Program-made: the position numbers and the translations under genes
The notes under the pieces: generated by a model
Databases searched by the model: none
The model's input: only the letters and a program-made list of their open reading frames with translations
What the model was told of the DNA's origin: nothing
Virus record (IMG/VR): IMGVR_UViG_3300046692_000091
Location: 62,001-126,000 of that record
Direction: 5' to 3' (one strand)
Source of the DNA: a virus
Length of the DNA stretch: 64,000 bases
Part shown: positions 1-25,788 of the stretch, in pieces
Position numbering within the stretch: the first letter of the stretch is position 1
Layout: each line of letters opens with the position of its first letter

Positions 1-1580
1 AAGCTGCCCTGAAGGCTGCCCATCCTACTGGTGTGAATGGTGAAGGTTATCTGGTCGGTAGCGATCTATACCTCTACGGCGTAAACCCGGTTGGTGGTGC
101 TACTGAATGGTACAACGCTGGTCCTGTCCGTGGTCCGAAAGGTGATCAGGGTATCCAAGGTGTCACGGGTCTCCGTGGTATCCAAGGTCTGACTGGCGAA
201 CGTGGTGCACTGTGGCTGACTCTGCCGAATGGCGTTGAAGAACCTACCTCCGGCTACGGTCGTGAAGGTGACTGGGCTGTTAGCGCTGACTTCAATACCT
301 TCTACAAAGCTCCGGGTACTGGCTGGGTTCAGATCGGTCGTCTGGTAGCTGGTGACGTTAACTCGCCACTGGGTAGCTTGGGTAAAGTAGTTCGTCTGGG
401 TACCTCGTGGGTTGCTCTGCCGGTTGATGAAGTTCCAAGTCTTGCCTCCGGTAAGATCTACGCTCGTCAATCTAAAGCTGGGTCTACCACTGAAGGTGAG
501 TGGGTTGAAGTTGTCTTCCCGGATTCGTTCGATGAAGCTCCTGATGATGCTAAGCTCTACGTCCGTACTCGTTCCGTTGGTGTTGAAGATGGTAGCTGGT
601 TCGAATTGCCGAAGACCATCGGTGATCTGGTTACTAAAGATACCAAACAATACGCTCGTACTTTCGAAGCAGCTGACTCTGCCCCTAAGTGGAAAGAGAT
701 TGTTATCCCATCAGTTGTCGTTGGTGAAGCTCCTACCACCGCAGGCAAAGTTTACCTGCGTAGCGGTCAGAATGCCAACTGGGTCGAATATGTAGCTCCG
801 GCTGCAGGCGTACCAGAAGCTCCTACCACTGCTGGTCTTGCATTTGCACGTCGTGGTGACAACACTAGTTGGGTCGAAGCTACACCAGAAGTAACTGGTG
901 CTGCCGGTACTGTCTTCGGTCGTAAGGGCGATAAGACTTGGGTACCTGCTGCTCCAGAAGCTCCAACTACAGCTGGTAAGTTCTACATGCGTCGTGGTGA
1001 TACTGCCGCGTGGGTAGAATACGTTGCTCCATCGGGTGGTGTGGCTGAGGCACCAACTACTGCAGGTAAAACATTCCTGCGTAGTGGCCAGAATACTAAC
1101 TGGGTAGAGTTCACCGATACTCCAACTGATACCAAGTCGTATCTGCGGAAAGGTGATAAGACCTGGGTTGAGTATGTGGCTCCTGCTGCTGGTATTACTG
1201 AGGCTCCTAACGACGGTAAACAATACGTCCGTAAGAACCAAGCATGGGCTTCCTTCGATCGTTATGATACCCCTATCACTGCGATCGTAGCCACCGCTAC
1301 ACTTGATCCACTAGTCAACCAGTTCTTCACCGTAGCTAACGCCTCGGGTGCTAAGACTCTGACCATCAACGCAGGCCCTGCTTCGCGTGCGATGACTATC
1401 GTTCTGGTAGTAAGTGGTTCTGGTGGTACTCTGACCTTCACCCCTGGTTCTGGCGCAGGTACTGCTGTCAAGTGGAACACTGGTACAGCTCCAGTCTTCA
1501 CCGGTACTAAAACTGTTCTTACTCTCCTTTGGGATGGGACAGAATGGATCGGTGCACAAGGTGCAGTAACAACTAGCTAA
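1..1580 (+). CDS. Tail fibre protein, 5'-truncated by the window edge
   Basis: The reading frame is open from the first complete codon at position 3, so the true start lies upstream and the GTG at 33 is not the start. Near the N-terminus of the visible part is a collagen-like run of about nine Gly-X-Y triplets (GPKGDQGIQGVTG...). It is followed by 10-12 imperfect repeats of about 20-35 residues built on EAPTTAGK-x-Y-x-R-x-GD-x-x-x-WVE. The C-terminal 100 residues are Gly/Thr-rich and beta-like (TLTFTPGSGAG, LLWDGTEWIGAQ), as in many phage fibre tips. Fibres of this build are trimeric receptor-binding parts of the tail; the receptor cannot be told. A hairpin terminator follows at 1589. Fibre role is confident; exact attachment site in the virion is unknown. 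Confidence 0.8.
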   Translation, partial: AALKAAHPTGVNGEGYLVGSDLYLYGVNPVGGATEWYNAGPVRGPKGDQGIQGVTGLRGIQGLTGERGALWLTLPNGVEEPTSGYGREGDWAVSADFNTFYKAPGTGWVQIGRLVAGDVNSPLGSLGKVVRLGTSWVALPVDEVPSLASGKIYARQSKAGSTTEGEWVEVVFPDSFDEAPDDAKLYVRTRSVGVEDGSWFELPKTIGDLVTKDTKQYARTFEAADSAPKWKEIVIPSVVVGEAPTTAGKVYLRSGQNANWVEYVAPAAGVPEAPTTAGLAFARRGDNTSWVEATPEVTGAAGTVFGRKGDKTWVPAAPEAPTTAGKFYMRRGDTAAWVEYVAPSGGVAEAPTTAGKTFLRSGQNTNWVEFTDTPTDTKSYLRKGDKTWVEYVAPAAGITEAPNDGKQYVRKNQAWASFDRYDTPITAIVATATLDPLVNQFFTVANASGAKTLTINAGPASRAMTIVLVVSGSGGTLTFTPGSGAGTAVKWNTGTAPVFTGTKTVLTLLWDGTEWIGAQGAVTTS

Positions 1581-1654: not shown

Positions 1655-2305
1655 ATGACCACAGTTAATCGTACTACCCGTCTGATTGAATCGGACAGCG
1701 GTGACTATCCTCTTTACTTAGCCGATCTTGCTTCACGTGTAAACAATACTTCCTTCCCACAAGTTGTCGACTCCGAAATCCTTTTCGAGTTTGGCTACGA
1801 AGTTGTACTAGACACAACAATTCCAGTTAATGACGTTGTTACAGAAGGTGCACCAGAACTACGCGATGGTAGCTGGTACCGGGTATGGAATGCTCGTCCT
1901 TTCAATGAGAACGAACTGACTGCTAATTTGGCGGCAGCGAAAGCGGCTCTGAAAGCACAAGCTGAAGCCAAACGCGTTACTGACTTCGAAAAGGGTTTCC
2001 CACACCAGTTTGGTGAAACGATCTATCACGTGCAGATTCGCCCTATCGATTGTCAGAACATTACTGCTCTGCGGATTATCGCAAAAGAAGCAGTGGACCT
2101 CGGTGCACCATTCCCAATTAACTTCCGTGTCTATGAGAACGTAAGCGTTGCTTTGACTGCTCCAGAAATGGTAGCCTTAGCTAATGCTGCTCTCTACAAG
2201 GTAAGTGAAGGGTATGAAGTTATTTGGACTTTCAAAGACCAAGTAGATGCTGCAACAACTATTGCTGAGCTGCCTCTACTCCCAGTTGAGTTGTTTACGT
2301 TGTAA
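1655..2305 (+). CDS. DUF4376-like tail-fibre-associated protein
   Basis: This 216-residue protein follows the fibre gene and has a good ribosome-binding site (AAGGAATCAAC before ATG). The central part reads YRVWNARPFNENELTANLAAAKA followed by Ala/Lys/Arg-rich helix, which resembles the DUF4376 or tail-fibre-assembly type found beside phage fibre genes. The C-terminal half is predicted mixed alpha/beta. Position directly after a fibre suggests a fibre chaperone or an accessory fibre piece. This family placement is by eye from pattern only, and a structural role is equally possible. The gene stands between two hairpins and may be a single transcription unit. Confidence 0.5.
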   Translation: MTTVNRTTRLIESDSGDYPLYLADLASRVNNTSFPQVVDSEILFEFGYEVVLDTTIPVNDVVTEGAPELRDGSWYRVWNARPFNENELTANLAAAKAALKAQAEAKRVTDFEKGFPHQFGETIYHVQIRPIDCQNITALRIIAKEAVDLGAPFPINFRVYENVSVALTAPEMVALANAALYKVSEGYEVIWTFKDQVDAATTIAELPLLPVELFTL

Positions 2306-2387: not shown

Positions 2388-3449
2388 ATGTATGAATTGC
2401 TGCTGTCTTCCGGAATGGCAAGTGGTGCGAACTATTTACCTAATTCCGGACCAGGTACTAAAACTCTTAAAGCGGGCAACAGTACGTTAGGGTATTTCGG
2501 TGAAGTTACTACTACCGAACTATTTAACGGCTGGGAAGTTGCAGCAGCAGCTGGCCTAGAGACAGGGAACGAAGTTTCTACACCGTCAACTACGTGGTTT
2601 AAGTTTATCCAGAATGGTAAAACACTATATATTCCACGTACGCAGTTGCGACTACTGGTTAGTTGGGAAGAACTGTACCAGAAAGGTTTAGTTTACGGGA
2701 CGCGTGAGTACGGACCTTATCCAGCTGGTGCAGGTGTATCACAGTTGGTCACTATGGCCAAGATGGAGAATGGCAGACAATGGTTACTGAAGCCTAGACT
2801 TGCACGAGGTTCGATTGTAGATCCACAAGCATACCCAATCCCACAAGCATCTCTGGATCTAAGTGAATTCTCTTTATTGGGTCACCTTACGCCTAGTGGC
2901 GCCGGAAACGTTACTGATAAATGGGAAAACTTTTCACTGGGATATTTGGGTTATACAAGTAACCTCCAAAGCTGGGTACAGGAAACACTTTCGGTTAACG
3001 TGACCAGTGCCTTCTATCGTGGTGATGTGTCTGGACCTAACGCCCACGCCTACGTGGCTAAGTCCACAAAGACATTACCTGGTGCAGCTTGGCGCCCTGT
3101 ATTGGAATTGATCCCCGACAATGAATTGAAAGATCCATTCCGACTATATGGCTTGGTGGTTGGTACTACCCAACCATCGATTAAAGAAACAGCCCCTACT
3201 TCAGACGCTATCATTAACCTGAGTAATATTCGACAGGCTGAATGGGTTTCGAAGCAACCGGTAATCACAACTCAGACAACTTCTGATTCGATCTTCCAGA
3301 CAGTGAATATTACTGGTACAACAACACCTACATTAACGCCAGTTGCATTATCTGCACAAGGTGTAGATCTGGTATCCAATCCGGTTAATCCAGTTTGGTC
3401 TGTAACCACATTGAACCCAGTCGCACTCAGTGCCATTAACATTGCATAA
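2388..3449 (+). CDS. Virion/fibre paralogue A1 (first gene of cassette 1)
   Basis: This 353-residue protein starts after an AGGAG site and heads the first of two four-gene cassettes. Unlike the B, C and D members it has no N-terminal fibronectin-like domain. It begins almost directly with the shared module: GPGTKTLKAGN, GYFG, FIQNGKTLYIP, YQKGLVYG, and ends that module with WRPVLELI near residue 245. About 100 Thr/Ser/Pro/Val-rich residues follow, with a repeated SNPV/LNPVALS pattern, looking like a beta-rich stalk. It is clearly homologous to A2 at 6322. A role as a tail fibre or virion decoration is inferred from position beside the fibre gene; no enzyme motif is visible. Confidence 0.65.
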   Translation: MYELLLSSGMASGANYLPNSGPGTKTLKAGNSTLGYFGEVTTTELFNGWEVAAAAGLETGNEVSTPSTTWFKFIQNGKTLYIPRTQLRLLVSWEELYQKGLVYGTREYGPYPAGAGVSQLVTMAKMENGRQWLLKPRLARGSIVDPQAYPIPQASLDLSEFSLLGHLTPSGAGNVTDKWENFSLGYLGYTSNLQSWVQETLSVNVTSAFYRGDVSGPNAHAYVAKSTKTLPGAAWRPVLELIPDNELKDPFRLYGLVVGTTQPSIKETAPTSDAIINLSNIRQAEWVSKQPVITTQTTSDSIFQTVNITGTTTPTLTPVALSAQGVDLVSNPVNPVWSVTTLNPVALSAINIA

Positions 3450-3460
3450 AGGAACTTCAT

Positions 3461-4390
3461 ATGTACCTCAAACTTAAATGGGAAAATACCAACGTCGGTC
3501 CCATTACCGTAAAAATCTATCGTGGCGACACGGCAGTTGATCGTGCTAACCTAACTGGTTTGATCGCTACTTTATCCGCTGGTGAAACGGAATATAGTGA
3601 CACTACTGTTGTTGCAGGTAATTTGTATTACTATGTTTTTGAAACGACCAGTGCTACAGACCGGGTAGTCTCACAGAATATCATTCTCCGGGCAGTTCCT
3701 CGTCGGGGTCCCGGTGGTACCACGTTGCTCAATGGGGATTATAACTACGGTTACTATGGGTCAATCCCATCGTCTAGCTTTATCAACACTAACGAACTTC
3801 GTGCAGCTGTTGGATTTGTTGGTGGTACGACTTTCCAGGTTACTCCAGCATGGCATAAGTATGCACGTAACGGGAAGATCCTATTCATTCCTGAAGGTCA
3901 GTTGGCAACTGGTTGTACTTTCGATATGTTGTACACAGCTGGTCTTGTCTATGGTGCCGATAACAATGGACCATACACTTTTACTGTTCCAGTCAACCAA
4001 AAGAAACAAGTGAAGATCGGTGCAGATTGGTATTGGGTTAGATTGATGCGTGGCTTCAATGATGACTATGGTGTATTCCCTACTGCCGCTGTCGTTTCAG
4101 AACCACTGGAGACATTCACTTGTGAATGGGATGATTTTACTTATCCATTAATGACCTGGGTACCGGATCGTCAACGTATGGTTAACGTCGCCAATATCAC
4201 GCCAACTACCATGTTGACTATTGGTAACTGGGTTCAAGAGAAAGTTGCGGCAGCAGCTGGATCACAAGCGCTCTTTCGAGGCACTAGTGCAAACACTCGG
4301 GTGGGCCTTGCTTACCGTACCGGTTCAGCTACAAACGTGGCCGCCGGCTGGTGGCCAGTGCTAGAACTCATTGAAACCGCTGGCTCGTAA
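3461..4390 (+). CDS. Virion/fibre paralogue B1, FN3-like N-terminus
   Basis: The gene follows A1 by 11 bases with AAGGAA as ribosome-binding site. Residues 1-90 look like a fibronectin type III or Ig-like domain (LKLKW, KIYRGDTAVD, TLSAGETEYSDTTV, YYYVFETTS). After a Pro-rich linker (RRGPGG) comes the module shared by all eight cassette proteins: GDYNYGYYGSIP, WHKYARNGKILFIP, YTAGLVYGADNNGP, VKIGADWYWVRLMRG, CEWDDF, and the C-terminal WWPVLELI. It pairs best with B2 at 7322, which shares the GDYNYGY start and the YPL...VPxxQRxVN region. Probably a component of tail fibres or head/tail decoration; function not established. Confidence 0.65.
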   Translation: MYLKLKWENTNVGPITVKIYRGDTAVDRANLTGLIATLSAGETEYSDTTVVAGNLYYYVFETTSATDRVVSQNIILRAVPRRGPGGTTLLNGDYNYGYYGSIPSSSFINTNELRAAVGFVGGTTFQVTPAWHKYARNGKILFIPEGQLATGCTFDMLYTAGLVYGADNNGPYTFTVPVNQKKQVKIGADWYWVRLMRGFNDDYGVFPTAAVVSEPLETFTCEWDDFTYPLMTWVPDRQRMVNVANITPTTMLTIGNWVQEKVAAAAGSQALFRGTSANTRVGLAYRTGSATNVAAGWWPVLELIETAGS

Positions 4391-4401
4391 GGAACACTAT
4401 A

Positions 4402-5313
4402 ATGACAGTTCGCATTAGTTGGGCTAATGCGAATGCTACTGCTGATTCGGTTATTCTCTACCGGTCAGCAACACCATTCGCACAAACTGCTCTACCCGCC
4501 CCATTAGTTACCTTGGCTGGTAACGCCACGACCTACGATGATACCACAGTTACACGTAATACGGTTGCATATTACAGAGCTAAGATTGTAAAGGGTACTG
4601 AGGAACTCATCACACCACTGATGACGATGGGTCACTTTCCTGATTCTGGGCCTGGGCCACAGACACTGCTTCGTGGTAACTGGGCATTGGGTTACTTCGG
4701 TAAAGTACCGGTCGCTAACATGTGGACACTCGCACAGTTCCGTACAGCAACTGGAGCTACCGGTCTACCTGCAGCTGCAGCCGAATCGAACTTGACCGTT
4801 TGGCATAAGTTCATCCGTAATGGAAAGATTATCTTTGTGCCAGGTTGCCCCATGACCAACGCCACCACCACTTGGTCGCAAATCTATGCACTGGGTTTGG
4901 TTTATGGCACCAATGATAATGGTGCAGTGCCATCAACTCTAACGGTACCACCAACGCCAGTGAACCAATTCAAGACGGTTACCTTAGGAGCATATACTTT
5001 TCTGGTAAGATTGCCTTTGGGTTGTACTATGCCAGTCAATGCTATTATTGGTACTGGTTTCACCACCACACTAGAGGGTAGTGAATGGGACGAAACAATT
5101 TCGCGGTGCTATACGAGTTGGGCTGCGGCTTACAACAGTGCACGGTTCGATGACGTCGCTATAACGGCCACCTCTCCAGTTTCTGCAATTACCCAACACG
5201 TGACAACCAATGGTAAGCAATGTCTCCGTCGAGGAACACCCGCGGCATCGCCGGAAGATCCATATGACGTTACCGGTGCATTTTGGGTGCCTTTCGTTGA
5301 ACTTATCCCTTGA
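4402..5313 (+). CDS. Virion/fibre paralogue C1, FN3-like N-terminus
   Basis: This 303-residue protein follows B1 by 11 bases. The N-terminal 90 residues have the FN3-like pattern (VRISWANANATADSVILYR, TLAGNATTYDDTTV, YYRAKIV). The shared module follows: SGPGPQTLLRGNWALGYFG, WHKFIRNGKIIFVP, YALGLVYGTNDNG, VTLGAYTFLVRLPLG, EWDE, and the terminal FWVPFVELIP. It corresponds to C2 at 8274 by order and by the ALPAP/TLAG pattern. No catalytic or metal-binding motif is seen. Likely one of several alternative or co-assembled fibre subunits. Confidence 0.65.
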   Translation: MTVRISWANANATADSVILYRSATPFAQTALPAPLVTLAGNATTYDDTTVTRNTVAYYRAKIVKGTEELITPLMTMGHFPDSGPGPQTLLRGNWALGYFGKVPVANMWTLAQFRTATGATGLPAAAAESNLTVWHKFIRNGKIIFVPGCPMTNATTTWSQIYALGLVYGTNDNGAVPSTLTVPPTPVNQFKTVTLGAYTFLVRLPLGCTMPVNAIIGTGFTTTLEGSEWDETISRCYTSWAAAYNSARFDDVAITATSPVSAITQHVTTNGKQCLRRGTPAASPEDPYDVTGAFWVPFVELIP

Positions 5314-5322
5314 GGTTAAAAC

Positions 5323-6237
5323 ATGTCTATTCAAGTTGACTGGATTGACCGTAATGCCGCGGTGGATTCGTTTAAGATCTATCGTGCTACTACGCCAATC
5401 CTTGACGGGGCATTACCTGCCCCATTGACAACAGTTGCAGGTAACGTGTTTACTTATCTGGACACAACTGCTCCACGTAATACCGTTTATCACTACCGGA
5501 TTGCTACTGTTATTGGGGGAGTGGAAACACTCTCTACTAATAAGCCATTGGCTAATATTCCGTACAGTGGTCCTGGACCACAGAAGTTAATTCGTGGGGA
5601 TTATGCATTTGGTGTTTACGGTAGACTAAACATTGGTGATCTATTTGGTCCTGACGAAATGGTTAAGTTTATGGGCTGGCCTGCTAGCGTCGCCCTGGCT
5701 ACCGCTAAGTACTGGATCAAGTATGTTGTGAATGCAAAGATTTATTTCATTCCAGATAATGCTCTTGCTTCTTCTATTCCAAATGGACTGCGTGGTATTT
5801 ATGCGGCTGGTGCCATGTATGGAACAGATGCATCCAATACGTTCATGCCGACCCTAACGGCGCAACAGGGTATCATCCCACAAGCTAAGATGATTAATCG
5901 TGGCGAACATCAGTTCATGGTGCGGCTCCCCGGCAGCCGATTAGGCGCTGCACCAGCTACGCTAGATCCGGCTAACCAAGTTGGCGGAGAATGGGACTTA
6001 TACATTGCACCTATGTTCGTATCACGAACTACACCAGGTACAATTCCACAATACGGGGATGAAGTTTTCATCACTTCTCAGTATTACTACACCAAAGATG
6101 CGCAGACCGCCACTTCAATTTATGTTGTGTGTCGAAGCGGCGGTAGCATTGATGGTGTATTCTCAACAGGGTTAGGTGCCGATCAAGGGGCACAAGCTTC
6201 CCATTTCTGGAAACCAGTATTGGAACTAACAATGTAA
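5323..6237 (+). CDS. Virion/fibre paralogue D1, FN3-like N-terminus (last gene of cassette 1)
   Basis: This 304-residue protein follows C1 by 9 bases (GAGGTTAAAAC then ATG). The FN3-like start reads VDWIDRNAAVDSFKIYRAT, TVAGNVFTYLDTTA, YHYRIATV. The shared module continues with SGPGPQKLIRGDYAFGVYG, YWIKYVVNAKIYFIP, YAAGAMYGTD, HQFMVRLPGSR, GEWD and terminal WKPVLELTM. D2 at 9178 is its counterpart (same VDWID/LDWID start and GEW/GEI-D region). A strong hairpin directly after the stop closes cassette 1. Confidence 0.65.
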   Translation: MSIQVDWIDRNAAVDSFKIYRATTPILDGALPAPLTTVAGNVFTYLDTTAPRNTVYHYRIATVIGGVETLSTNKPLANIPYSGPGPQKLIRGDYAFGVYGRLNIGDLFGPDEMVKFMGWPASVALATAKYWIKYVVNAKIYFIPDNALASSIPNGLRGIYAAGAMYGTDASNTFMPTLTAQQGIIPQAKMINRGEHQFMVRLPGSRLGAAPATLDPANQVGGEWDLYIAPMFVSRTTPGTIPQYGDEVFITSQYYYTKDAQTATSIYVVCRSGGSIDGVFSTGLGADQGAQASHFWKPVLELTM

Positions 6238-6248
6238 TACAACATATT

Positions 6249-6272
6249 CGTCTCTCCCTTACAGGAGAGACG
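6249..6272. terminator. Hairpin terminator closing cassette 1, with adjacent TATG
   Basis: Nine-pair stem CGTCTCTCC/GGAGAGACG, loop CTTACA. CATA lies two bases before (6243-6246), TATG one base after (6274-6277), with a second TATG at 6290-6293. It separates the two fibre cassettes. Confidence 0.85.
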
Positions 6273-6321
6273 TTATGCCCAAGTAATGTTATGAGTTGTT
6301 AATATAAAGCAGGAGACTCAA

Positions 6322-7311
6322 ATGAATGAATTACTCCTATCTACTGGAGCAATGGGGCAACAATATTTCCCTAATTCCGGCCCTGGCCGCAAAACTCTAA
6401 AAGCGGGTAATGAACAAATAGGTTATTTTGGGACTTTGTCTTCTGTCGAATTATTCCAGGGATGGGAAGTCAGTAGTGCTCTGGGCTTTACTGCTGGGTT
6501 AGTTAACAAAGAAGCAGATAACATCTGGATGAAATTTATTTACCACGGGAAGTTCCTTTTCGTGTGTAAAGAATATACCCGCTATAACTTGGCATGGGAT
6601 GACATCTATAAAGCTGGCGCGATGTATGGTCTTAAAGGCAATGGGCCTTATCCCGTTGCTGGTTTTGCAAAAGACCAATGGACCGTAATGGTTAAAGAGG
6701 AATCAGGTGTAGCCATTCCTTGGAAACTAGTGCCACGCACTATTCATGGTACCAGTGTTGATCCTTATGTTGGCGTTGACTATACTGCATTTGGATTTGC
6801 AGAAGGAAACGAGCACAACGATTTGATTTTTCGTTTGTTAACAGATGGCGCAAACGGTCGCCCAAATACAGGTATCTTTGAAAAATGGACAGGGGCGGAG
6901 TTAGGTATTAATGGCAATACTAACTACGGTTTCATCCAAGAGACATCTGTGGCTAACGTAGCTAACTCAATGGTACGTGGACCAACAGGTTCAACACTCA
7001 ACTCGCCAAAAGCTACTATTCGGGCAATGTCTGATGGTTGGCGACCAGTATTAGAATTGGTTGGTGACGATAATGCCTTCAACCCATATCGACTGTATCA
7101 AGAATATACGGGTAACCAAGGCCCTCTTAGCGTTGCTGGCCAATTCATAGATGTGGTATATAGTCCAACTCAATTCAAAGTTACTGATGGGGCTGCTATT
7201 TTGGCACCTGCAGTTCAGTCGGTAGCATTTGTAGACTATGCACGCAGACCACAGAACCTAACCGTGGTTAATCCAATCTATCCTGTAGCCATGTCTTTTA
7301 CACGCACCTAA
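6322..7311 (+). CDS. Virion/fibre paralogue A2 (first gene of cassette 2)
   Basis: This 329-residue protein is the counterpart of A1. Both begin M-x-ELLLS, carry PNSGPG-x-KTLKAGN and GYFG, then ELFxGWEV, and lack the FN3-like domain of the B, C and D members. The module includes WMKFIYHGKFLFV, YKAGAMYGLKGNGPYP and WRPVLELVGDD, followed by a shorter Pro/Val-rich tail than in A1, also ending in an NP-x-x-PVAMS motif. AGGAGACTCAA precedes the ATG. Its own TATG elements after the upstream hairpin suggest that cassette 2 has a separate promoter. Confidence 0.65.
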   Translation: MNELLLSTGAMGQQYFPNSGPGRKTLKAGNEQIGYFGTLSSVELFQGWEVSSALGFTAGLVNKEADNIWMKFIYHGKFLFVCKEYTRYNLAWDDIYKAGAMYGLKGNGPYPVAGFAKDQWTVMVKEESGVAIPWKLVPRTIHGTSVDPYVGVDYTAFGFAEGNEHNDLIFRLLTDGANGRPNTGIFEKWTGAELGINGNTNYGFIQETSVANVANSMVRGPTGSTLNSPKATIRAMSDGWRPVLELVGDDNAFNPYRLYQEYTGNQGPLSVAGQFIDVVYSPTQFKVTDGAAILAPAVQSVAFVDYARRPQNLTVVNPIYPVAMSFTRT

Positions 7312-7321
7312 GGGGTGAAAT

Positions 7322-8263
7322 ATGAACTTGAAACTTATCTGGACTGACATCAATACTGTCGATGTCACGATCAATATCTATCGTAGTGAAACTGTGATAG
7401 ATACAGCTAACCTTCCAGCGCCAGTAGCTACATTAACTGCTGGTGAAGAAACATGGACAGACCCAGATGCTGTCCGTGGTCGGTATTACTACTACGTCTT
7501 CAAAACTACAAGTGCTGTTGATACTGTCACATCCGCTAACTATCGCATCCAAGCAGTTCCTCGATTGGGCCCAGGGCCATCCGAACTGAAATATGGCGAT
7601 TATAATTACGGTTATTTTGGATCTATCCCAGCAAACGAATTCATCAACACTGCTAATTTGCGGAGTGCTGTGAACTTCCAAGCGGGTGCAGGTTCTAACG
7701 CTGCTCCAACGTGGCATAAATACGTACGAAATGGCATTGTGTACTTCGTACCTAATACATGCTTGGGACAATCTGTTCAATGGACAGCCATCTATTTGGC
7801 TGGTATCATGTTTGGTGTAACTGGTCCAGGTCCTCATCGTAACGGTGCAGCCATTACAGATCAACGCAAAACAGTAACGATTGGCTCAGATACATTTATC
7901 GTGCGATGCATGAAAGGTTATAGCGATGATGTTACACGCATTGTGCCATTAGCTACGGTCAACGAACCCTCTGAATATTCTAACGAATGGAATGATTTTA
8001 TTTACCCCCTCGTTAAATACGTTCCGGCAGCACAACGCTTAGTTAATATCACGACGCAGACTGTTCAGGAGACTCTACCTGGTCCATGGAACGGTTATAC
8101 AGGTGCAGCTATCCAAGAACTTAGTGATAGTGGCGGAAACCCAGTAGTTCGTCGTGGGGGTGCTTTTGAGAACCGCTCAGGACTTGCTCAACGTTCTTGC
8201 AATACTGATACCTACCTAACTTCATGGTATCCAATTCTGGAACTAGTAGCACCAGCTATCTAA
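7322..8263 (+). CDS. Virion/fibre paralogue B2, FN3-like N-terminus
   Basis: This 313-residue protein lies 10 bases after A2 (GGGGTGAAAT then ATG). The FN3-like part (LKLIWTDINTVDVTINIYR, YYYVFKTTSAVDTV) is very close to B1, as are GDYNYGYFGSIP, FINTANLRSAVNF and the YPLVKYVPAAQRLVN region. The shared module includes WHKYVRNGIVYFVP, YLAGIMFGVTGPGP, VTIGSDTFIVRCMKG and terminal WYPILELV. One small insertion before the C-terminus distinguishes it from B1. Confidence 0.65.
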   Translation: MNLKLIWTDINTVDVTINIYRSETVIDTANLPAPVATLTAGEETWTDPDAVRGRYYYYVFKTTSAVDTVTSANYRIQAVPRLGPGPSELKYGDYNYGYFGSIPANEFINTANLRSAVNFQAGAGSNAAPTWHKYVRNGIVYFVPNTCLGQSVQWTAIYLAGIMFGVTGPGPHRNGAAITDQRKTVTIGSDTFIVRCMKGYSDDVTRIVPLATVNEPSEYSNEWNDFIYPLVKYVPAAQRLVNITTQTVQETLPGPWNGYTGAAIQELSDSGGNPVVRRGGAFENRSGLAQRSCNTDTYLTSWYPILELVAPAI

Positions 8264-8273
8264 GTGAGGTAAC

Positions 8274-9167
8274 ATGTCAATTACAATTAACTGGCCTGCC
8301 ACTAACGTAGGGGTAGCCACTGCGGTTCGCATCTACGTAGATACATCCAAGATTCCGGATGATACATTACCAGCACCAATCGTTACATTGGCCGGAACCG
8401 AGACATCATTTATTTGGGCATCCCCACCAACTGATAATACCGTATATTACTTCCGAATTGCAATTGATCGCGAAGCAGATACGTGGTTGAGTGATAATCA
8501 GCAATATGGTTATTTCGTTTCAACTGGACCAGGCCCACAGCAAGTTGTTCGTGGGGACTGGGAGTATGGTTACTTTGGATTTGTGCCGAAAGCAACGATG
8601 GTGACAATGGCACAGCTGTCGGTTATACTGGCAACTGATGCAATGACACCAGCACCAGAAGTTAACTTCACTGGGTTCCATAAACTGGCATGGCAAGGCA
8701 AAATCTATTTCTATCCAGATGCATACGTTGCCTCTAACCAAACATGGCAGACATACTACGGGAAAGGGTACATGTATGGAATTGATGGGAATGGTAATCC
8801 ACCAATTTCAGTTACGCCAACAAACCAATTAAAAATTGTTACTATTGGGAGTAATCAATTTAAAGTACGTTCATTTAAAACACATCAAGCCTCAACTGAT
8901 GTCGCCGTATCCAGTATTCCTAATGATGGAACATCCGAGTGGGACAAATTAGTTTGTCGCCTACATCTCGTTACTGCCTTGCCAGGAAACGCTATTCATT
9001 TGTCGGACGTAGCCTATGATCCTTATCGGAATAGTGTTGGTCAACACATATGGAACATCAGTCTTGGTCACGCACTACAACGCGGTCGGTCTGATATCGA
9101 AGGATCAACAAACGTAATCTTTGGTGCTGGTTATGGCTGGATTCCTTTATTAGAGTTACAATTTTGA
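8274..9167 (+). CDS. Virion/fibre paralogue C2, FN3-like N-terminus
   Basis: This 297-residue protein follows B2 by 10 bases with GTGAGGTAAC before ATG. Its FN3-like segment (ITINWPATNVGVATAVRIY, TLAGTETSFIW, YYFRIAID) is followed by the shared module: TGPGPQQVVRGDWEYGYFG, FHKLAWQGKIYFYP, YGKGYMYGIDGNG, VTIGSNQFKVRSFK, EWDK and terminal WIPLLELQF. It matches C1 by position and by the LPAPIVTLAG stretch, but is more diverged than the A and B pairs. Confidence 0.65.
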   Translation: MSITINWPATNVGVATAVRIYVDTSKIPDDTLPAPIVTLAGTETSFIWASPPTDNTVYYFRIAIDREADTWLSDNQQYGYFVSTGPGPQQVVRGDWEYGYFGFVPKATMVTMAQLSVILATDAMTPAPEVNFTGFHKLAWQGKIYFYPDAYVASNQTWQTYYGKGYMYGIDGNGNPPISVTPTNQLKIVTIGSNQFKVRSFKTHQASTDVAVSSIPNDGTSEWDKLVCRLHLVTALPGNAIHLSDVAYDPYRNSVGQHIWNISLGHALQRGRSDIEGSTNVIFGAGYGWIPLLELQF

Positions 9168-9177
9168 GGTTTGAACA

Positions 9178-10110
9178 ATGCCAATTAAACTAGATTGGAT
9201 TGATCACAACGTCTCGGCAGATAGTCGTAAAGTCTATCGGTCGTTGACGAAGATTGATCAAGGCAACCTGGGTGTACCTCTCGCTACACTTGCAGGTAAT
9301 GCCTTAACTTACACGGATAACACAGTACAACGTGGGGTAACTTATCATTACGTGGTCACTAGTGTGCAAGGTGCGGATGAAGCACCTTCAGCTGAATATA
9401 TCATCGCTTACATTCCCTATACTGGTCCAGGCCCGCAGACATTGGTTCGGGGTACATGGGAATACGGTTATTTCGGACGAGTTCCATTAGAAGATATTTT
9501 CTCTTCAACCGAATTGATTAAGGGTTGTAATATCGCTTCAGGTATTACAGCCAACTTAACTGCTGGTAACTACTGGCACAAAGTGGTGTATGCTGGAAAG
9601 ATCTTGTTCTTCCCTAACAACTCAATTGGTACAGCGATCTCATATCAAACTCTGTACAACGCCGGATTAGTTTTCGGTACTAGACCGAGTACGGAATGGC
9701 CAGCTGCAGTCAAAACACAACTGGGTACAGTAGCACAAAATTTTGTGATTAGTTCTGGTACTCACCGATTTGTAGTAAGATTACCTACTTCACGTTCCAA
9801 CATGACTAGTACTAGTGTGGTGGCTACGGATCTGCGTGGAGGTGAGATCGATGCTATCTTTGCTGGTCTCTATATCGGTCGAGATTTTAATGACGCCAAG
9901 CTGGCCCAGTATGATGATTGCACCAGCCCATTGGCTGCCGGTAACTATTATCCCACTGCGGATTATTATGATGGTGCTAACCCTAGTGTTAATGCTATCT
10001 TCCGGATGTCGAACACTACTTCTGTAATTGATAGTTTACCAACTAAGTTCTTATTGACTAACGCATCAACTGCTTTCTATTGGAAACCAGTACTGGAATT
10101 AGTTTACTAA
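9178..10110 (+). CDS. Virion/fibre paralogue D2, FN3-like N-terminus (last gene of cassette 2)
   Basis: This 310-residue protein follows C2 by 10 bases. The start IKLDWIDHNVSADSRKVYR and YHYVVTSVQG match D1, as do TGPGPQTLVRG, YGYFGRVPLEDIF, YWHKVVYAGKILFFP, YNAGLVFGTR, HRFVVRLPTSRS and terminal WKPVLELVY. It ends at a hairpin shared with the convergent minus-strand operon. As with the other seven paralogues, the fibre or virion role rests on location and beta-rich composition. Confidence 0.65.
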   Translation: MPIKLDWIDHNVSADSRKVYRSLTKIDQGNLGVPLATLAGNALTYTDNTVQRGVTYHYVVTSVQGADEAPSAEYIIAYIPYTGPGPQTLVRGTWEYGYFGRVPLEDIFSSTELIKGCNIASGITANLTAGNYWHKVVYAGKILFFPNNSIGTAISYQTLYNAGLVFGTRPSTEWPAAVKTQLGTVAQNFVISSGTHRFVVRLPTSRSNMTSTSVVATDLRGGEIDAIFAGLYIGRDFNDAKLAQYDDCTSPLAAGNYYPTADYYDGANPSVNAIFRMSNTTSVIDSLPTKFLLTNASTAFYWKPVLELVY

Positions 10111-10119
10111 GCGGCATAA

Positions 10120-10141
10120 AGCCTTCCCCAACGGGAAGGCT
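10120..10141. terminator. Bidirectional hairpin between convergent operons
   Basis: Nine-pair stem AGCCTTCCC/GGGAAGGCT, loop CAAC. CATA lies one base before (10115-10118) and TATG two bases after (10144-10147). Because the genes on both sides converge here, it can end transcription from both strands. Confidence 0.85.
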
Positions 10142-10155
10142 AATATGTCGTCTCG

Positions 10156-20442: not shown

Positions 20443-21000
20443 ATGTCTTATCTCGATTCGAAGAAACTCAAAGCCATGATGGCTAGCTTGGAAGACAGTG
20501 ATGGTGTTGCACGTCAAGTAGACGTTACCAATGCTTCCGCTTCTGCAACTAAAGATCATCCGGAATCACCTACTGCTGAAGCCGATTCTAAAGGCGAAGC
20601 TGCTACTGCTGCTGACACTGTAAAGGTTGGTGATGGCGACGGTGTTACTCCAACTATCCAAGACGCTATCAATGCTGGCGTTCAGGTTGGTGAAGACATC
20701 ACTAAGATGGAAGAAGCTAAAGCCGCTGTTGAGCACCACATGGGTGAAGTAGCTAACTACATCGACCGCAATGAATCGGTACCACCTTCGTTGGCTGAAG
20801 TGATCAAGGTTAGTCTGCAACGCCATGATCGTAAGTTCTTTGCACAAACTGTTCCTGCTCTGGAAAGCTTTTCGGCTGTTACTGGTCGGATGACTACTTC
20901 CATCGATCTGTTGAACCGTCTGAAGAACAGTGTTGGTACAATTGATACCGGTCTTACCGCTGCCCGTGCACAACTGGCACAGCTTAAAGGAACTAAGTAA
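20443..21000 (+). CDS. Inner-body-like protein 1 (short paralogue)
   Basis: This 185-residue protein shares a module with the next inner-body genes: a helix with EEAKAAVEHHM, then LAEVIKVSLQRHDRKFFAQTVPALESF. It has two S/A-x-E type sites, MMASLE17 near the N-terminus and VPALE141 after the module, where a phiKZ-type prohead protease could cut. The segment between them is acidic and Ala/Thr-rich, as expected of a removable propeptide. Only about 45 residues would remain after the second site, so it may act mainly as a scaffold. In phiKZ, gp93, gp95 and gp97 are related, cleaved inner-body proteins; I infer the same family. Its stop overlaps the next start (TAATG). Confidence 0.6.
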   Translation: MSYLDSKKLKAMMASLEDSDGVARQVDVTNASASATKDHPESPTAEADSKGEAATAADTVKVGDGDGVTPTIQDAINAGVQVGEDITKMEEAKAAVEHHMGEVANYIDRNESVPPSLAEVIKVSLQRHDRKFFAQTVPALESFSAVTGRMTTSIDLLNRLKNSVGTIDTGLTAARAQLAQLKGTK

Positions 21001-22415
21001 TGGCCAAGATCAAACTCTCTAAGTTACTGCCATCTCTCGAATCTGAAGATGGTGTAGCAAAACCTGTTGACGTAAAAGAAGAATCTGCTGAACTCGGTAA
21101 AGCCGAAGTTCAACAAGTTGCTGATGACGGCTCAGGTAAGGGCGATGTTGCTGAAGCCGCATTTGAAGTAGAGGTTGATGGTAAGGACTTTACTGCTATC
21201 GATGAAGCTTCTAAACGTCAAGGCGAAGTTATCCATAAACAATTCGAACGTCTACAGGAAACTGAATGTTCGTTGGAAGCTTATATCGGTGTACTCCGTG
21301 GTGCAAAAGCTACCCGTAGTTCAATCGGTTCTGGCGCAGCTGCAGTTATTAAGTTTGACCTGGAAGCACGCTATCCAAAGTTCTTCACTGGGTTGATCCC
21401 CTCTGTTGAAGCCTATGATGGTGATAAGAGTCTGGTCGTTTCTGAACAACTGGAAAGCAACTTGGGTTCTAAACTTAAGGGCGTAGGTAAAGCTATCGGC
21501 GCAGCTCTGAAGAAATTCTGGGAATGGGTTAAAGGCATTTATGCTAAGGCTAAAGTATTCATTAAGAAACTTATTGATGCTGTGATGGGCGAGAAACAAA
21601 AGACGATCTACCTGTTAAAAGTAGAGAAGTCGATCACTACACCTGGCGGTAAACCTAAAGCACTACCTGCTCCTCCGGCTGGCGTCAAGTCCCGTGCGGC
21701 TAACGCGGTGCAACTACTGTTAGCAGATCACAGTAAAAGCGACAAGCCTCCAGCGAAGAAACGCACATTACCCGAGACCGTTAAGGTTACAGGTGTAAGT
21801 ATCTTGGAATCCGTTGAGAACGATCCATGGGGCATCGGTCGTTACGAAAGCACTATCCTGAATCACATCTACGAGATGTGGATTCCTGTTGCTGAGCGAG
21901 CGATTACTAAACTGGAATCCACAGCCGACATCTACAAGTCAGGCAGTGGTCTGGATAAGCAGATCGAAGAAATTGCCTCTGCACAGAAGGCATGGCCGGC
22001 TACATCCGTGATGGGTGGTAACTATGTAGTTACTCGTGAAGGGGATAGCTACAAGATCGTTATGTCGCAGAAAGACGGTTCAGGTAAATCCCTAGAAGAA
22101 CTCCGGCTGGAATCGCAAGCTGACATTCGTGATCACCTTGATCGGAACGAAGTTCTGTTGAGCAACATCGAACGTACCAGTGCTAAATGGGAAAAGATCC
22201 AAGAGAAGATTAACAAGCTTGAATCTAAGTTTGATAATGAACTCAAGGTCACCCCAGAAGCTAAGAATGCATTGACCAAGTATGTTACTCAGATCCTGAG
22301 TTCCGATATTGATCGCATCCTGAAGCACGCTGGTGCAGTTGCTGCTAAGCGTAACGACGTTCTCGATTACATGCTCATGATTCACGCCCAAGGTGGCGTT
22401 GAAGATTCAAAGTAA
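21000..22415 (+). CDS. Inner-body-like protein 2
   Basis: This 471-residue protein begins PSLESEDGVAKPVDV, nearly the same as the first paralogue (ASLEDSDGVARQVDV). The shared module follows: LEAYIGVLRG, AVIKFDLEARYPKFFTGLIPSVEAY (candidate cut after Glu137), then LGSKLKGVGKAIGAALKKFWEW. The mature part would be about 334 residues, basic and helical, with coiled-coil stretches near the end. Such proteins form the protein core around which DNA is wound in phiKZ heads and enter the host with the DNA. Assignment rests on paralogy, cleavage-like sites and the protease gene at 35658. Confidence 0.65.
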   Translation: MAKIKLSKLLPSLESEDGVAKPVDVKEESAELGKAEVQQVADDGSGKGDVAEAAFEVEVDGKDFTAIDEASKRQGEVIHKQFERLQETECSLEAYIGVLRGAKATRSSIGSGAAAVIKFDLEARYPKFFTGLIPSVEAYDGDKSLVVSEQLESNLGSKLKGVGKAIGAALKKFWEWVKGIYAKAKVFIKKLIDAVMGEKQKTIYLLKVEKSITTPGGKPKALPAPPAGVKSRAANAVQLLLADHSKSDKPPAKKRTLPETVKVTGVSILESVENDPWGIGRYESTILNHIYEMWIPVAERAITKLESTADIYKSGSGLDKQIEEIASAQKAWPATSVMGGNYVVTREGDSYKIVMSQKDGSGKSLEELRLESQADIRDHLDRNEVLLSNIERTSAKWEKIQEKINKLESKFDNELKVTPEAKNALTKYVTQILSSDIDRILKHAGAVAAKRNDVLDYMLMIHAQGGVEDSK

Positions 22416-22465
22416 GCCCATCTACAGAAGCTTATAGTGAAGGTCCGGATAGCACATTTACGCAC

Positions 22466-22747
22466 ATGGGTAAAACCTACAGTGTGGATCGTTTACTAGA
22501 GGTAACACGGAATACACCGGTAGTTGATTTTCCATTAGACCGTGTCACATGGATGATTGACGACGACTACGATGTTAAGCGCATGCGTCAAGCCGACACA
22601 TCAGTTCCAATTTGTGTTGCCCAGCTTCCTACAGGTGAATGGGTTACGATGGATGGTTATCATAGAGTCATCAAAGCGTTCTATGTGGAAAAGCGTAAAA
22701 CCATCCCCGCTAAGATCGTTACGAAACAACTGTTTAAACAGCTTTAA
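22466..22747 (+). CDS. Small ParB/sulfiredoxin-fold-like protein
   Basis: This 93-residue protein resembles a minimal ParB N-terminal domain. PTGEWVTMDGYHRVIKAFY contains the DG-x-HR motif (residues 63-67), preceded by a strand IDDDYDVKRMRQAD and by PICVAQL, which fit the ParB/Srx layout. In ParB-type proteins this motif binds nucleotide; here there is no DNA-binding or dimer domain. It lies between two inner-body genes. The ribosome-binding site is weak. Function unknown; it may be a nuclease-like or nucleotide-binding accessory protein. Confidence 0.5.
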   Translation: MGKTYSVDRLLEVTRNTPVVDFPLDRVTWMIDDDYDVKRMRQADTSVPICVAQLPTGEWVTMDGYHRVIKAFYVEKRKTIPAKIVTKQLFKQL

Positions 22748-22758
22748 CTAAATCATTC

Positions 22759-22780
22759 GGTTGGTACTCAGGTACCAACC
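22759..22780 (+). terminator. Hairpin terminator with adjacent TATG
   Basis: Nine-pair stem GGTTGGTAC/GTACCAACC, loop TCAG. TATG follows after one base (22782-22785), 28 bases before the next gene. No CATA on the left side. Confidence 0.75.
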
Positions 22781-22813
22781 TTATGTAACTTTAATCCGCG
22801 GAGTAGAACAAAC

Positions 22814-24577
22814 ATGGCTAAGCCAGTAACTAAGAAACCAGCAGTCAAGAAGCCTGCTGTCAAAAAACGTTTTCAAGATGCAATGGGCTTCCTGGCCTCA
22901 ATGGAATCTGTAGCTATTGCTGAAGACAAGAATGTATCCGTTGACGCCCCTGTTCAAAAGGACGTCAAGATCGAAATCACCGACACCGTTAAACCTAACG
23001 AAGAAGTTGGTGTTACCGTATCGAACACTCCGACCAAAGAACTGAAGGATACTACTCAGTCTGGTCAAGCACAAACTCAAGACGTTGGTAAAGTCTCTGT
23101 TAAAGAAACTACCGATGCAGGCAATGCTGGTGAAGAAGATGCTGTTACTAATAAGACTCCTGACGCTGTTAAAGTTGGCGAGAAAGATCTTACCACTGGT
23201 GTTGTTTCTAAAGAAGACGCTATCGAAGCGAATGAAACAGAACACCTTGAACCAAAAGAAGCTGACGACGCAGTAATGAACGTTGAGTCTGCAGTGGAAG
23301 AACTTGAATCGAGTGGCATCACTATTGGTTCCGATAGCGCACTGCAGAAAGCTGAATCGGTTGGTAATGACCTGGAAAACATCTCCAAGGTAGAAGCTGC
23401 TCTGGAACAATACCAGACCCTGTTGGTTGGTATGCGTAAGAAAGGTGTTAAGCCCACACCTGAGCTGGCTCGTGCTATCAAGATTTCTCTGGAATCGCAT
23501 GACCGCAATTTCTTCCGCCCTATCGTTAGCTCGTTAGAAGACTTCGCTCGTCCTGACACTCGTCTGGTTGCTAGCCGTGGTTTGGAAGCAGCTATCGGTG
23601 ACAAGCTGAAAGATCTGGGCGCTGCAGCTGGTAATGCTCTGCAACGTCTGATCGAAATGCTGATCGATGCTTGGAACCACTTCACTCGTGATACCCCTAA
23701 GCTGATCGAAGAACTCGACAAAACCATCAAAGCCGTACAGTCCGCTGAGCTTTCTGCCGGTGAAAACCTGGCTGTTAAGTCTGCTGGTCGTCTGATGATC
23801 AACGGCAACTTTGCTGGTGATTCGGTTGAGGTTGTTACTAACGTCGAGAAGACTGCACAACAGCTGTTGGTTGAATGGCCTAACGCTCTGATTAAACTCG
23901 TACAGACTATCGAAGCTTCCAGCAAACAAGTAGCTGTGTCTAATGAAGACTCCGCTGGTTCTAGTCATGGTATCGAAGAAGCAGCACAGAAAGCTCTCGA
24001 AGCTACCTTCTCTCAGTTCAAGCAAGTTGATTCTGGTGAGGCTCCATCCTCGATGGGTTCTTATGAAATCGTAACTCGTTCGCCAATCATGCCTGGTAAC
24101 AAAGCCATGTTCATTGGTATCGGTTCCGGTACTAGCGCTGCAGAGAACGTTGCCGATAAGAACTTCATGAAGTTTGAATTCGCTTCTACTGGTGATGCTG
24201 AGTCTGGTGATAGCGAAGTTAAGATCCCTTCGAAAGAACGTGCTATCGCTGCACTGAATGCTATTAAAGGTATCGTTGCTAACCTGATCGGTAAAGATAC
24301 TTCGATGGGTGCTCTGAAGAACCTAAGTAAGACTATCACATCTGGTAGCCCTACCGCTAAGGGTGCTGTTCAAGCTGCTCTGATGCAACATCGCATGTTC
24401 ATGGGTTATCTGACCACTCTGGTTAAATCCTACATTGCTTTCTATAGCCATGTTGCTGCCGAAAGCTCTGGTAAAGGTGTTGCTGTTCGTGAGAATAGTG
24501 CTGCAGCCCATACCGATGGCAAAACCACAGATCGCACCAAAGAAGCAGATGACGAATCTGTAGTCTCCGTCCAGTAA
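22814..24577 (+). CDS. Inner-body-like protein 3 (largest paralogue)
   Basis: This 587-residue protein starts with a Lys/Pro/Ala-rich tail (KPAVKKPAVKK) and has LASME31. A long acidic, Thr/Val/Glu-rich stretch to about residue 185 looks like a propeptide. The shared module is KVEAALEQYQTLLVG, ARAIKISLESHDRNFFRPIVSSLEDF (candidate cut after Glu242), then GDKLKDLGAAAGNALQRLIEML. The mature part would be about 345 residues, helical, without enzyme motifs. Own promoter is suggested by TATG after the upstream hairpin. High-copy inner-body role is inferred by analogy with phiKZ gp93/95/97. Confidence 0.65.
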   Translation: MAKPVTKKPAVKKPAVKKRFQDAMGFLASMESVAIAEDKNVSVDAPVQKDVKIEITDTVKPNEEVGVTVSNTPTKELKDTTQSGQAQTQDVGKVSVKETTDAGNAGEEDAVTNKTPDAVKVGEKDLTTGVVSKEDAIEANETEHLEPKEADDAVMNVESAVEELESSGITIGSDSALQKAESVGNDLENISKVEAALEQYQTLLVGMRKKGVKPTPELARAIKISLESHDRNFFRPIVSSLEDFARPDTRLVASRGLEAAIGDKLKDLGAAAGNALQRLIEMLIDAWNHFTRDTPKLIEELDKTIKAVQSAELSAGENLAVKSAGRLMINGNFAGDSVEVVTNVEKTAQQLLVEWPNALIKLVQTIEASSKQVAVSNEDSAGSSHGIEEAAQKALEATFSQFKQVDSGEAPSSMGSYEIVTRSPIMPGNKAMFIGIGSGTSAAENVADKNFMKFEFASTGDAESGDSEVKIPSKERAIAALNAIKGIVANLIGKDTSMGALKNLSKTITSGSPTAKGAVQAALMQHRMFMGYLTTLVKSYIAFYSHVAAESSGKGVAVRENSAAAHTDGKTTDRTKEADDESVVSVQ

Positions 24578-24586
24578 GGTATTCCC

Positions 24587-25747
24587 ATGGCCGATATCAC
24601 TCTAACACAGGTTGACGCTGACCTGGCCCGACTGAACCAGTACAATCTGGCTCTCGAAGGTTTTCGGCGTGTGATGGAAGGTCGGGAAGTTATTACTGGT
24701 CCAACGGCGGTCGCAATGCGGATCGCCTTGGAAGATGCTACTGTCGATCAAGATGACGACAAAGGCGTTACCGGTAAGGACATCGCGACTGGCTTCAAGA
24801 AAGTAATGATCACTGTGAAGAACATTATCCAGTGGCTGTTACGTACCATCGGTAAGTTGGTTGAGAAACTAGGCTTAGGTATGCAGAAGCTTGGTGCCAA
24901 AGGCAAGAAAGTTAAACAAGCTCTTGCCGAGATGCCAGAAGAAGCTCGTGCTGCTGTTGGCAAAGGCGAAGCTGCTGAACTACCGAAAGAAGTACTGCAA
25001 CCAGAGATGCTTGCAATTGACGGGCAGTTTGTTGGTAATGATGTTGAAGCAGTAAACAACGTTATTAAGATGGGTGCCTGGATCAACAACGATTTCCCTA
25101 AGATGTTTGATAAGCTTATGGGTGAAACGGAACGATTGGCTCGTGCTCACATGAAAGATGATACGTCAGAAGCTTTCTTTAAAGGTCTTGCTGGTGTTAT
25201 CAAAAGTGGTGCTTCTAAACCACCAGTTCCATTCAGTTCCGAAAACTTTGCACCTAGTGTGATGGTTGATGGCGAACACACCAATACCATGCCGCTCATG
25301 GGTGACCAAGGTTTAGTATTGCTCAATCCGAATGGCGGTAATGTACTGAACGAAAACAACCCAGTCGAAATGCTACGTGGTTGGTTCGTTATCCACTTCG
25401 GTGAGTTCAATACCAAACAAACTGGTGTTGAAGATATTCCTGTTGCTGACTTCAATACAATCACAAAGCTCTCCGATATGGTGAATGGTTCTATCGATGC
25501 ACACATCGATGCTGCAGGTGACGTAAGTTCTTTGATCAACAAGCGTATTGGCTCGATCAACTCACTGCTAGACGAAATGTCGAAAGGTGGTGGCCCAGGT
25601 GCTCAGGGTGAAATCGCTATGGCTCTAGGCGTCATGCTGCAACGATTAACCGAATGTCTTACCGCAGTTCAAAGTTGGTACGGTCGCACTCTTAACCAAG
25701 AGCTCGGCTATCTCGGTCTTAGTATCGAACACGCTACCAAGCATTAA
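24587..25747 (+). CDS. Inner-body-like protein 4
   Basis: This 386-residue protein follows the previous paralogue by 9 bases (AAGGTATTCCC then ATG). It has a shortened N-terminus with NLALEGF (Glu24) and MRIALEDA (Glu49), followed by FKKVMITVKNIIQWLLRTIGKLVEKLGLGMQKLG, which matches the amphipathic KLK...G helices after the cut site in the paralogues. It lacks the long acidic propeptide. The C-terminal half is helical and Met-rich. Same family as the three preceding members by order and pattern. Confidence 0.6.
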   Translation: MADITLTQVDADLARLNQYNLALEGFRRVMEGREVITGPTAVAMRIALEDATVDQDDDKGVTGKDIATGFKKVMITVKNIIQWLLRTIGKLVEKLGLGMQKLGAKGKKVKQALAEMPEEARAAVGKGEAAELPKEVLQPEMLAIDGQFVGNDVEAVNNVIKMGAWINNDFPKMFDKLMGETERLARAHMKDDTSEAFFKGLAGVIKSGASKPPVPFSSENFAPSVMVDGEHTNTMPLMGDQGLVLLNPNGGNVLNENNPVEMLRGWFVIHFGEFNTKQTGVEDIPVADFNTITKLSDMVNGSIDAHIDAAGDVSSLINKRIGSINSLLDEMSKGGGPGAQGEIAMALGVMLQRLTECLTAVQSWYGRTLNQELGYLGLSIEHATKH

Positions 25748-25756
25748 CGACATATT

Positions 25757-25778
25757 AGCCTTCCCGTTGGGGAAGGCT
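25757..25778. terminator. Bidirectional hairpin between convergent operons
   Basis: Nine-pair stem AGCCTTCCC/GGGAAGGCT, loop GTTG. CATA lies two bases before (25751-25754) and TATG one base after (25780-25783). It lies between the inner-body operon (+) and the spike operon (-). Confidence 0.85.
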
Positions 25779-25788
25779 TTATGCTGTC

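Follow-up and report, generated by a model that had tools for sequence, protein, structure and literature searches.

Tandem four-gene cassettes of probable minor head proteins in a jumbo phage appear to be inherited, and horizontally exchanged, as units

Paralog family B of the Salmonella jumbo phage SPN3US, which comprises gp83, gp138-154, gp161 and gp237 (PMC5694885), has been termed potentially the largest paralog family of any phage genome. Its members were all detected together in one virion (PMC5694885), mass spectrometry of a tailless mutant placed the 17-member run that ends with gp154 in the head (PMC5105663), and a second tailless mutant confirmed the head assignment, with only gp237 of this family moved to the tail (PMC10052503); the tail-fiber candidates of SPN3US are a different family, gp168-170 (PMC5694885). 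For the Erwinia phage RisingSun, a repeated motif was noted in the related genes without these being read as cassettes, and mass spectrometry of the lysate detected gp200 and gp204 (PMC6034870), i.e., the fourth genes of both of its four-gene sets (below). We found no description in the openly licensed literature of an organization into ordered cassettes of three or four genes, denoted here as ABC(D). Here, we analyze an array of eight homologous genes, arranged as two consecutive sets A to D, in a 64,000-base stretch of DNA (hereafter the window; bases 62001-126000 of the 314,814-base virus record IMGVR_UViG_3300046692_000091 of IMG/VR, the full record being denoted G000). We propose that the sets are, on balance, probably a co-inherited module of minor head proteins of Paralog family B that has been multiplied, and horizontally exchanged as a unit between distant jumbo phages.

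All eight genes are on the + strand, as ABCD (cassette 1) followed by ABCD (cassette 2), and have the order and coordinates that the original prediction gave them, with exactly matching open reading frame (ORF) starts. The even spacing of 9-11 bases claimed for both sets also holds, with intergenic gaps of 11, 11 and 9 bases in cassette 1 and 10, 10 and 10 bases in cassette 2; the gap between the sets (D1-A2) is 84 bases (6238-6321). The genes are listed below, with identities to one (L008) of the four other virus records compared (L008, L010, L012 and L013).

2388..3449, + strand: A1, 353 amino acids (aa); opens cassette 1; shared module, without FN3-like domain, with a variable C-terminal extension; phrog_3589 (head and packaging) 8.7e-48
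3461..4390, + strand: B1, 309 aa; N-terminal FN3-like domain plus shared module; phrog_1062 3.6e-62; AlphaFold2 model available
4402..5313, + strand: C1, 303 aa; FN3-like domain plus module; module groups with C2, FN3-like part nearest to D1
5323..6237, + strand: D1, 304 aa; FN3-like domain plus module; closes cassette 1
6322..7311, + strand: A2, 329 aa; opens cassette 2; 61% identity to L008 A2
7322..8263, + strand: B2, 313 aa; cassette 2; 74% identity to L008 B2
8274..9167, + strand: C2, 297 aa; cassette 2; 46% identity to L008 C2
9178..10110, + strand: D2, 310 aa; closes cassette 2; 61% identity to L008 D2

One module, GPG..L..G....GYFG...W.K....GK...W..Y..G..G...RPVLEL, is common to all eight proteins, as had been predicted, and chance is ruled out as the source of their likeness (E-values down to 4e-83). 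B, C and D combine an N-terminal FN3-like domain with this module of ~230 residues, whereas A consists of the module and a variable tail and, again as predicted, has no FN3-like part. The AlphaFold2 model of B1 is of high confidence (predicted local distance difference test, pLDDT, 92.6), and Foldseek matched its first ~80 residues to FN3 domains, mostly with a probability of 0.95-1.0 but with E-values of only ~0.01-0.1. We take the N-terminal part of the B1 model to have the FN3 fold, C and D being assigned by homology only; a model of A1 was poor (pLDDT 52) and was left unused. The remainder of B1 resembles solely other virion proteins of jumbo phages, including proteins of Noxifer, PhiPA3, EL and RSL2. 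Searched against PDB sequences, the B profile gave weak FN3-type matches only, including the N-terminal region of a pectate lyase (E 0.004), B1 alone and A gave no match, a Pfam search with all eight proteins was empty, and a megablast nucleotide search against phages found nothing. The RPVLEL ending had pointed to a possible C-type-lectin-like fold of the C-terminal half, but this was rejected, with no fold match in its support. Also rejected was the possibility that the array is the target of a diversity-generating retroelement, the reverse transcriptase PF00078 being absent from G000 while the controls were positive.

The PHROG profiles 1062 and 3589 (virion structural, head and packaging) match all eight proteins, and tblastn and profile searches match SPN3US_0145-0153 (gp145-gp153), placing the eight proteins in Paralog family B by homology to members among gp138-gp154. 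gp145-gp153 form three tandem ABC triplets, that is, homologous A, B and C genes follow each other in the same order as in the window, and in tandem; unlike the window, however, these are three-gene units without a D of the Noxifer type, their A has an extra N-terminal domain, and no tail-fiber gene stands beside them. It is also important to note that gp145-gp153 belong to the head family by mass spectrometry of tailless particles, whereas a head position of the eight proteins is presumed from such relatives. The nearest named phage found was the Pseudomonas jumbo phage Noxifer, which has an orthologous ABCD set (NOXIFER_136-133) in the same neighborhood (fiber, DUF4376), but as a single cassette, with identities to cassette 1 of 47% for B, 44% for C, 39% for D and ~31% for A. 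The RisingSun genes gp197-gp204 share the ABCD-ABCD tandem arrangement, but the two sets are mutual sisters (its own duplication) and their fourth genes are not orthologous to the D genes of the window, while genes 00167-00178 of the Erwinia phage pEa_SNUABM_4 form tandem cassettes of the same classes, but as four ABC cassettes. Finally, gp83 of phiKZ, annotated as a structural head protein, carries the shared module (A-like) but is a lone 504-aa gene with no B, C or D adjoining.

More broadly, cassettes in 1 to 4 copies were seen in many jumbo phages: one in Noxifer, SA002 and RVTF4, two in PhiEaH1 and EarlPhillipIV (and the two ABCD sets of RisingSun), three in SPN3US, Asesino and phiEaH2, and four in pEa_SNUABM_4; phiKZ, Phabio and Deimos-Minion have an A-like gene only, within the stretch examined. 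The genome of the window phage contains, in addition to the eight genes in the array, one two-module relative elsewhere, a distant solo gene of 412 aa (G000:288598-289836, equal to L051:599-1837; outside the window) that starts with MFELLLS, like A, and has two tandem shared modules. In L012, directly behind the ABCD set, comes a relative of 666 aa that has repeated modules (L012:11859-13859), as if a fifth gene had been fused.

The pairing A-A, B-B, C-C and D-D had been predicted, with a tree of the eight set beforehand as its test. The maximum-likelihood tree recovers all pairs, A1+A2 (support 100/99), B1+B2 (100/99), D1+D2 (99/98) and, weakest, C1+C2 (73/76); the alternative grouping C1+D1 was rejected (approximately unbiased test, p-AU, 0.0095). 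BLASTP agrees with the class pairs except for C1, the best match of which is D1 (141 bits), with C2 second (132 bits), because the N-terminal FN3-like domain of C1 is nearest to that of D1 (50% identity); the main module of C1 is nearest to that of C2. This mosaic suggests domain exchange between neighboring genes for the FN3-like part of C1. In a cross-genus tree, A, B and D each form their own clade (Shimodaira-Hasegawa-like approximate likelihood ratio test, SH-aLRT, 98, 97 and 98) and C a weaker one (82), the exception being RisingSun, the A, C and D genes of which fall outside the respective classes in a further tree. Since the classes include genes of several genera, the split of one gene into the four classes apparently preceded the multiplication of the cassette and, judged from these trees, the cassette copies of the window phage are younger than the classes, in line with the first step of the predicted history, the expansion of one gene to four.

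Distances across 24 cassettes correlate between classes (r=0.68 for A-B, 0.59 for B-C and 0.60 for A-C; 0/5000 permutations as high), arguing that the cassettes are inherited as linked units. The second predicted step, that the entire block was simply duplicated in the lineage of the window phage, is not supported by comparison with related phages: cassettes 1 and 2 are non-sister in every class (p-AU of 6e-12, 2e-43, 3e-4 and 4e-90 for A, B, C and D, respectively), the sister of cassette 2 being, for each of the four genes, its counterpart in cassette 2 of L008 (support 100). A clade of all window and L008 copies that leaves out Noxifer, L010, L012 and L013 was rejected for B, C and D, but not for A. 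Cassette 1 of the window phage and of L008 shares 40, 55, 39 and 42% identity (A/B/C/D) and cassette 2 shares 46-74% (by gene in the list above), the latter in excess of the core genes of the same two phages, i.e., 33% for RNA polymerase, 36% for RNase H (fragment), 26-30% for a 678-aa protein and 31% for UvsX; a 2336-aa tail protein had no match between the two. Between the window phage and Noxifer, identities are 43-59% for core genes and 31-47% for cassette genes; thus, the cassette genes do not evolve slowly. Further, cassette 1 of L008 is closest to L010 in B, C and D (A/B/C/D identities of 40/68/58/60%), the UvsX proteins of these two being 25% identical. The plainest reading of these comparisons is that L008 combines sets of two affinities, cassettes having moved as sets between distant jumbo phages. 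Fourfold-degenerate sites are near saturation (0.28-0.40 for B genes), and hence the exchange events would not be recent. The Noxifer "tail sheath", considered as an extra core marker, had no match in any of the five records and was unused.

Several points weigh against interpreting the cassettes as an exchanged module of head proteins. The head location is transferred from phages only ~30-40% identical in these proteins; the shared module has no explanatory fold match outside the FN3-like part; the fiber neighborhood seems to have been exchanged along with the cassette, which would fit a role in adsorption; L008 and L010 are metagenomic contigs; and the topology alone is possibly compatible with an ancient duplication followed by losses in the single-cassette phages. 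The latter would involve one in-place tandem ABCD duplication in an ancestor, loss of a copy in Noxifer, L010, L012 and L013, and a cassette 2 that merely evolves slowly. The sets are indeed adjacent, with the same order and orientation, and the RisingSun copies pair with each other, so such duplication happens. However, several losses would be required (in the records of the single-cassette phages, we found no second ABCD set elsewhere, just scattered single relatives), the conservation of cassette 2 between the window phage and L008 would have to surpass by far that of RNA polymerase or UvsX, even though the rate of the cassette genes between the window phage and Noxifer equals or exceeds that of core genes, and cassette 1 of L008 is closest to L010, not to the window, in B, C and D. 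We regard in-place duplication followed by loss as unlikely. That L008 is an assembly chimera and the exchange signal artifactual appears very improbable; although it is a metagenomic contig and the similarity, among the genes compared, is confined to one region, two donors would be needed (window-like for cassette 2, L010-like for cassette 1), the identities are 74% and 68% instead of close to 100%, and the near-saturated fourfold sites indicate an old divergence, not a misjoin of those records.

With respect to function, the original prediction spoke of virion or fiber proteins and of arrays that can supply alternative receptor-binding proteins; on this view, the eight would be tail-fiber or receptor-binding proteins, the second cassette providing an alternative host specificity. 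Consistent with this, the cassette follows tail-fiber and DUF4376 genes here and in Noxifer, L008, L012 and L013, and the region evolves fast and is horizontally exchanged, a frequent trait of host-range genes. Nonetheless, the SPN3US homologs are head proteins of tailless particles and occur all together in the virion, which makes alternative receptor-binding fibers the less likely reading; the joint detection in SPN3US, and that of gp200 and gp204 in RisingSun, argues that cassettes coexist in the particle and are not either/or alternatives. Moreover, phiKZ gp83 is annotated as a head protein, the SPN3US fiber candidates gp168-170 are another family, and the eight proteins match no characterized fiber or receptor-binding protein, neither in Pfam nor structurally beyond weak FN3-like similarities (FN3 domains lead the PDB matches, but none reaches E <= 0.001). 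We therefore find a receptor-binding role doubtful. No better are, in our view, the prospects of internal head proteins ejected with the DNA, a role that the SPN3US authors query for the abundant members gp141, gp143 and gp160, labeled "Head ejection?" in their Table 1 (PMC5694885). Against it, family B is absent from the list of proteins processed by the prohead protease (PMC5694885). The cassette genes themselves are, further, not the abundant members of the family. Finally, surface proteins are the more usual setting for FN3-like domains.

The array is flanked and divided by hairpins, and its upstream neighbors are conserved, as follows.

1..1580, + strand: tail-fiber gene, 3' part (the 5' end precedes the window); phrog_3904 1.1e-66; conserved neighbor upstream of the cassette
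1655..2305, + strand: DUF4376 protein, 216 aa; directly upstream of the array; conserved cassette neighbor in Noxifer, L008, L012 and L013
2310..2339, + strand: 11-pair hairpin, then TATG (TTATGCCCAGTTAAT); separates the DUF4376 gene from A1; presumed to end the preceding unit and to carry a late-promoter motif
6249..6277, + strand: 9-pair hairpin, then TTATG (TTATGCCCAAGTAAT); between D1 and A2; same boundary type as before A1
10120..10147, + strand: hairpin closing cassette 2, then AATATG; the next gene is convergent, on the - strand

Each set thus has the upstream hairpin and TATG ascribed to it, but the element is not specific to the cassettes: a similar hairpin follows the fiber gene (1589-1608), another closes cassette 2 (10120-10141), and a hairpin followed by TTATG, as before A1 and A2, occurs between other genes at 22759-22785 and 25757-25783. 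Because of these other sites, the element looks like a general transcription-unit boundary, and probably marks unit ends genome-wide together with a late-promoter motif. TATG is required in the late promoters of phiKZ (PMC4666361); by analogy, it is plausible that each set is expressed late from its own predicted promoter. Host-type sigma-70 promoters were no more frequent than expected by chance.

The tail-fiber gene begins before the window, and the ORF called at 33 represents the 3' end of this longer gene; the part within the window encodes a collagen-like stretch (GPKGDQG) as well as some eight diverged repeats of ~25 residues (EAPTTAGKxYLRxGxxxxWVEYVAP). In L010, the neighborhood is reshuffled, with a 490-aa diverged relative (6281-7753) between the fiber gene and A, and DUF4376 behind D. 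Elsewhere in the window (21000-25747), three successive genes match profiles of phiKZ-type internal head proteins (phrog_8282, phrog_6807) and represent another paralog group.

Overall, we favor the hypothesis of a co-inherited and horizontally exchanged head-protein cassette. Each four-gene set would encode minor phage-head proteins of Paralog family B that, going by the literature on relatives, are most likely located in the head and present jointly in the virion. Given the lasting linkage and the co-divergence of their genes, the A, B, C and D proteins would most likely act as one hetero-oligomeric complex, perhaps at the outer surface of the head, a position we infer from the linkage, the FN3-like domains and the family being missing from the list of protease-processed head proteins, and may function at the surface of the particle. 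The two sets would be late genes, the products of which enter the same virion, and whole cassettes would be gained, lost and exchanged among distantly related jumbo phages, with some lineages also duplicating them in place. More tentatively, and as a speculation we would not yet rely on, the cassettes might represent interchangeable complexes of the head surface, each with four co-adapted subunits, swapped and stacked whole among distant jumbo phages, i.e., a head-borne counterpart of tail-fiber swapping that aids attachment to cells or surfaces. While the array itself belongs to a known family, what is added is evidence for the cassette as a unit of inheritance and, probably, of horizontal exchange. 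Ordered and co-inherited units in 1 to 4 copies, apparently exchanged between distant phages, turn what has been a list of paralogs into a testable module.

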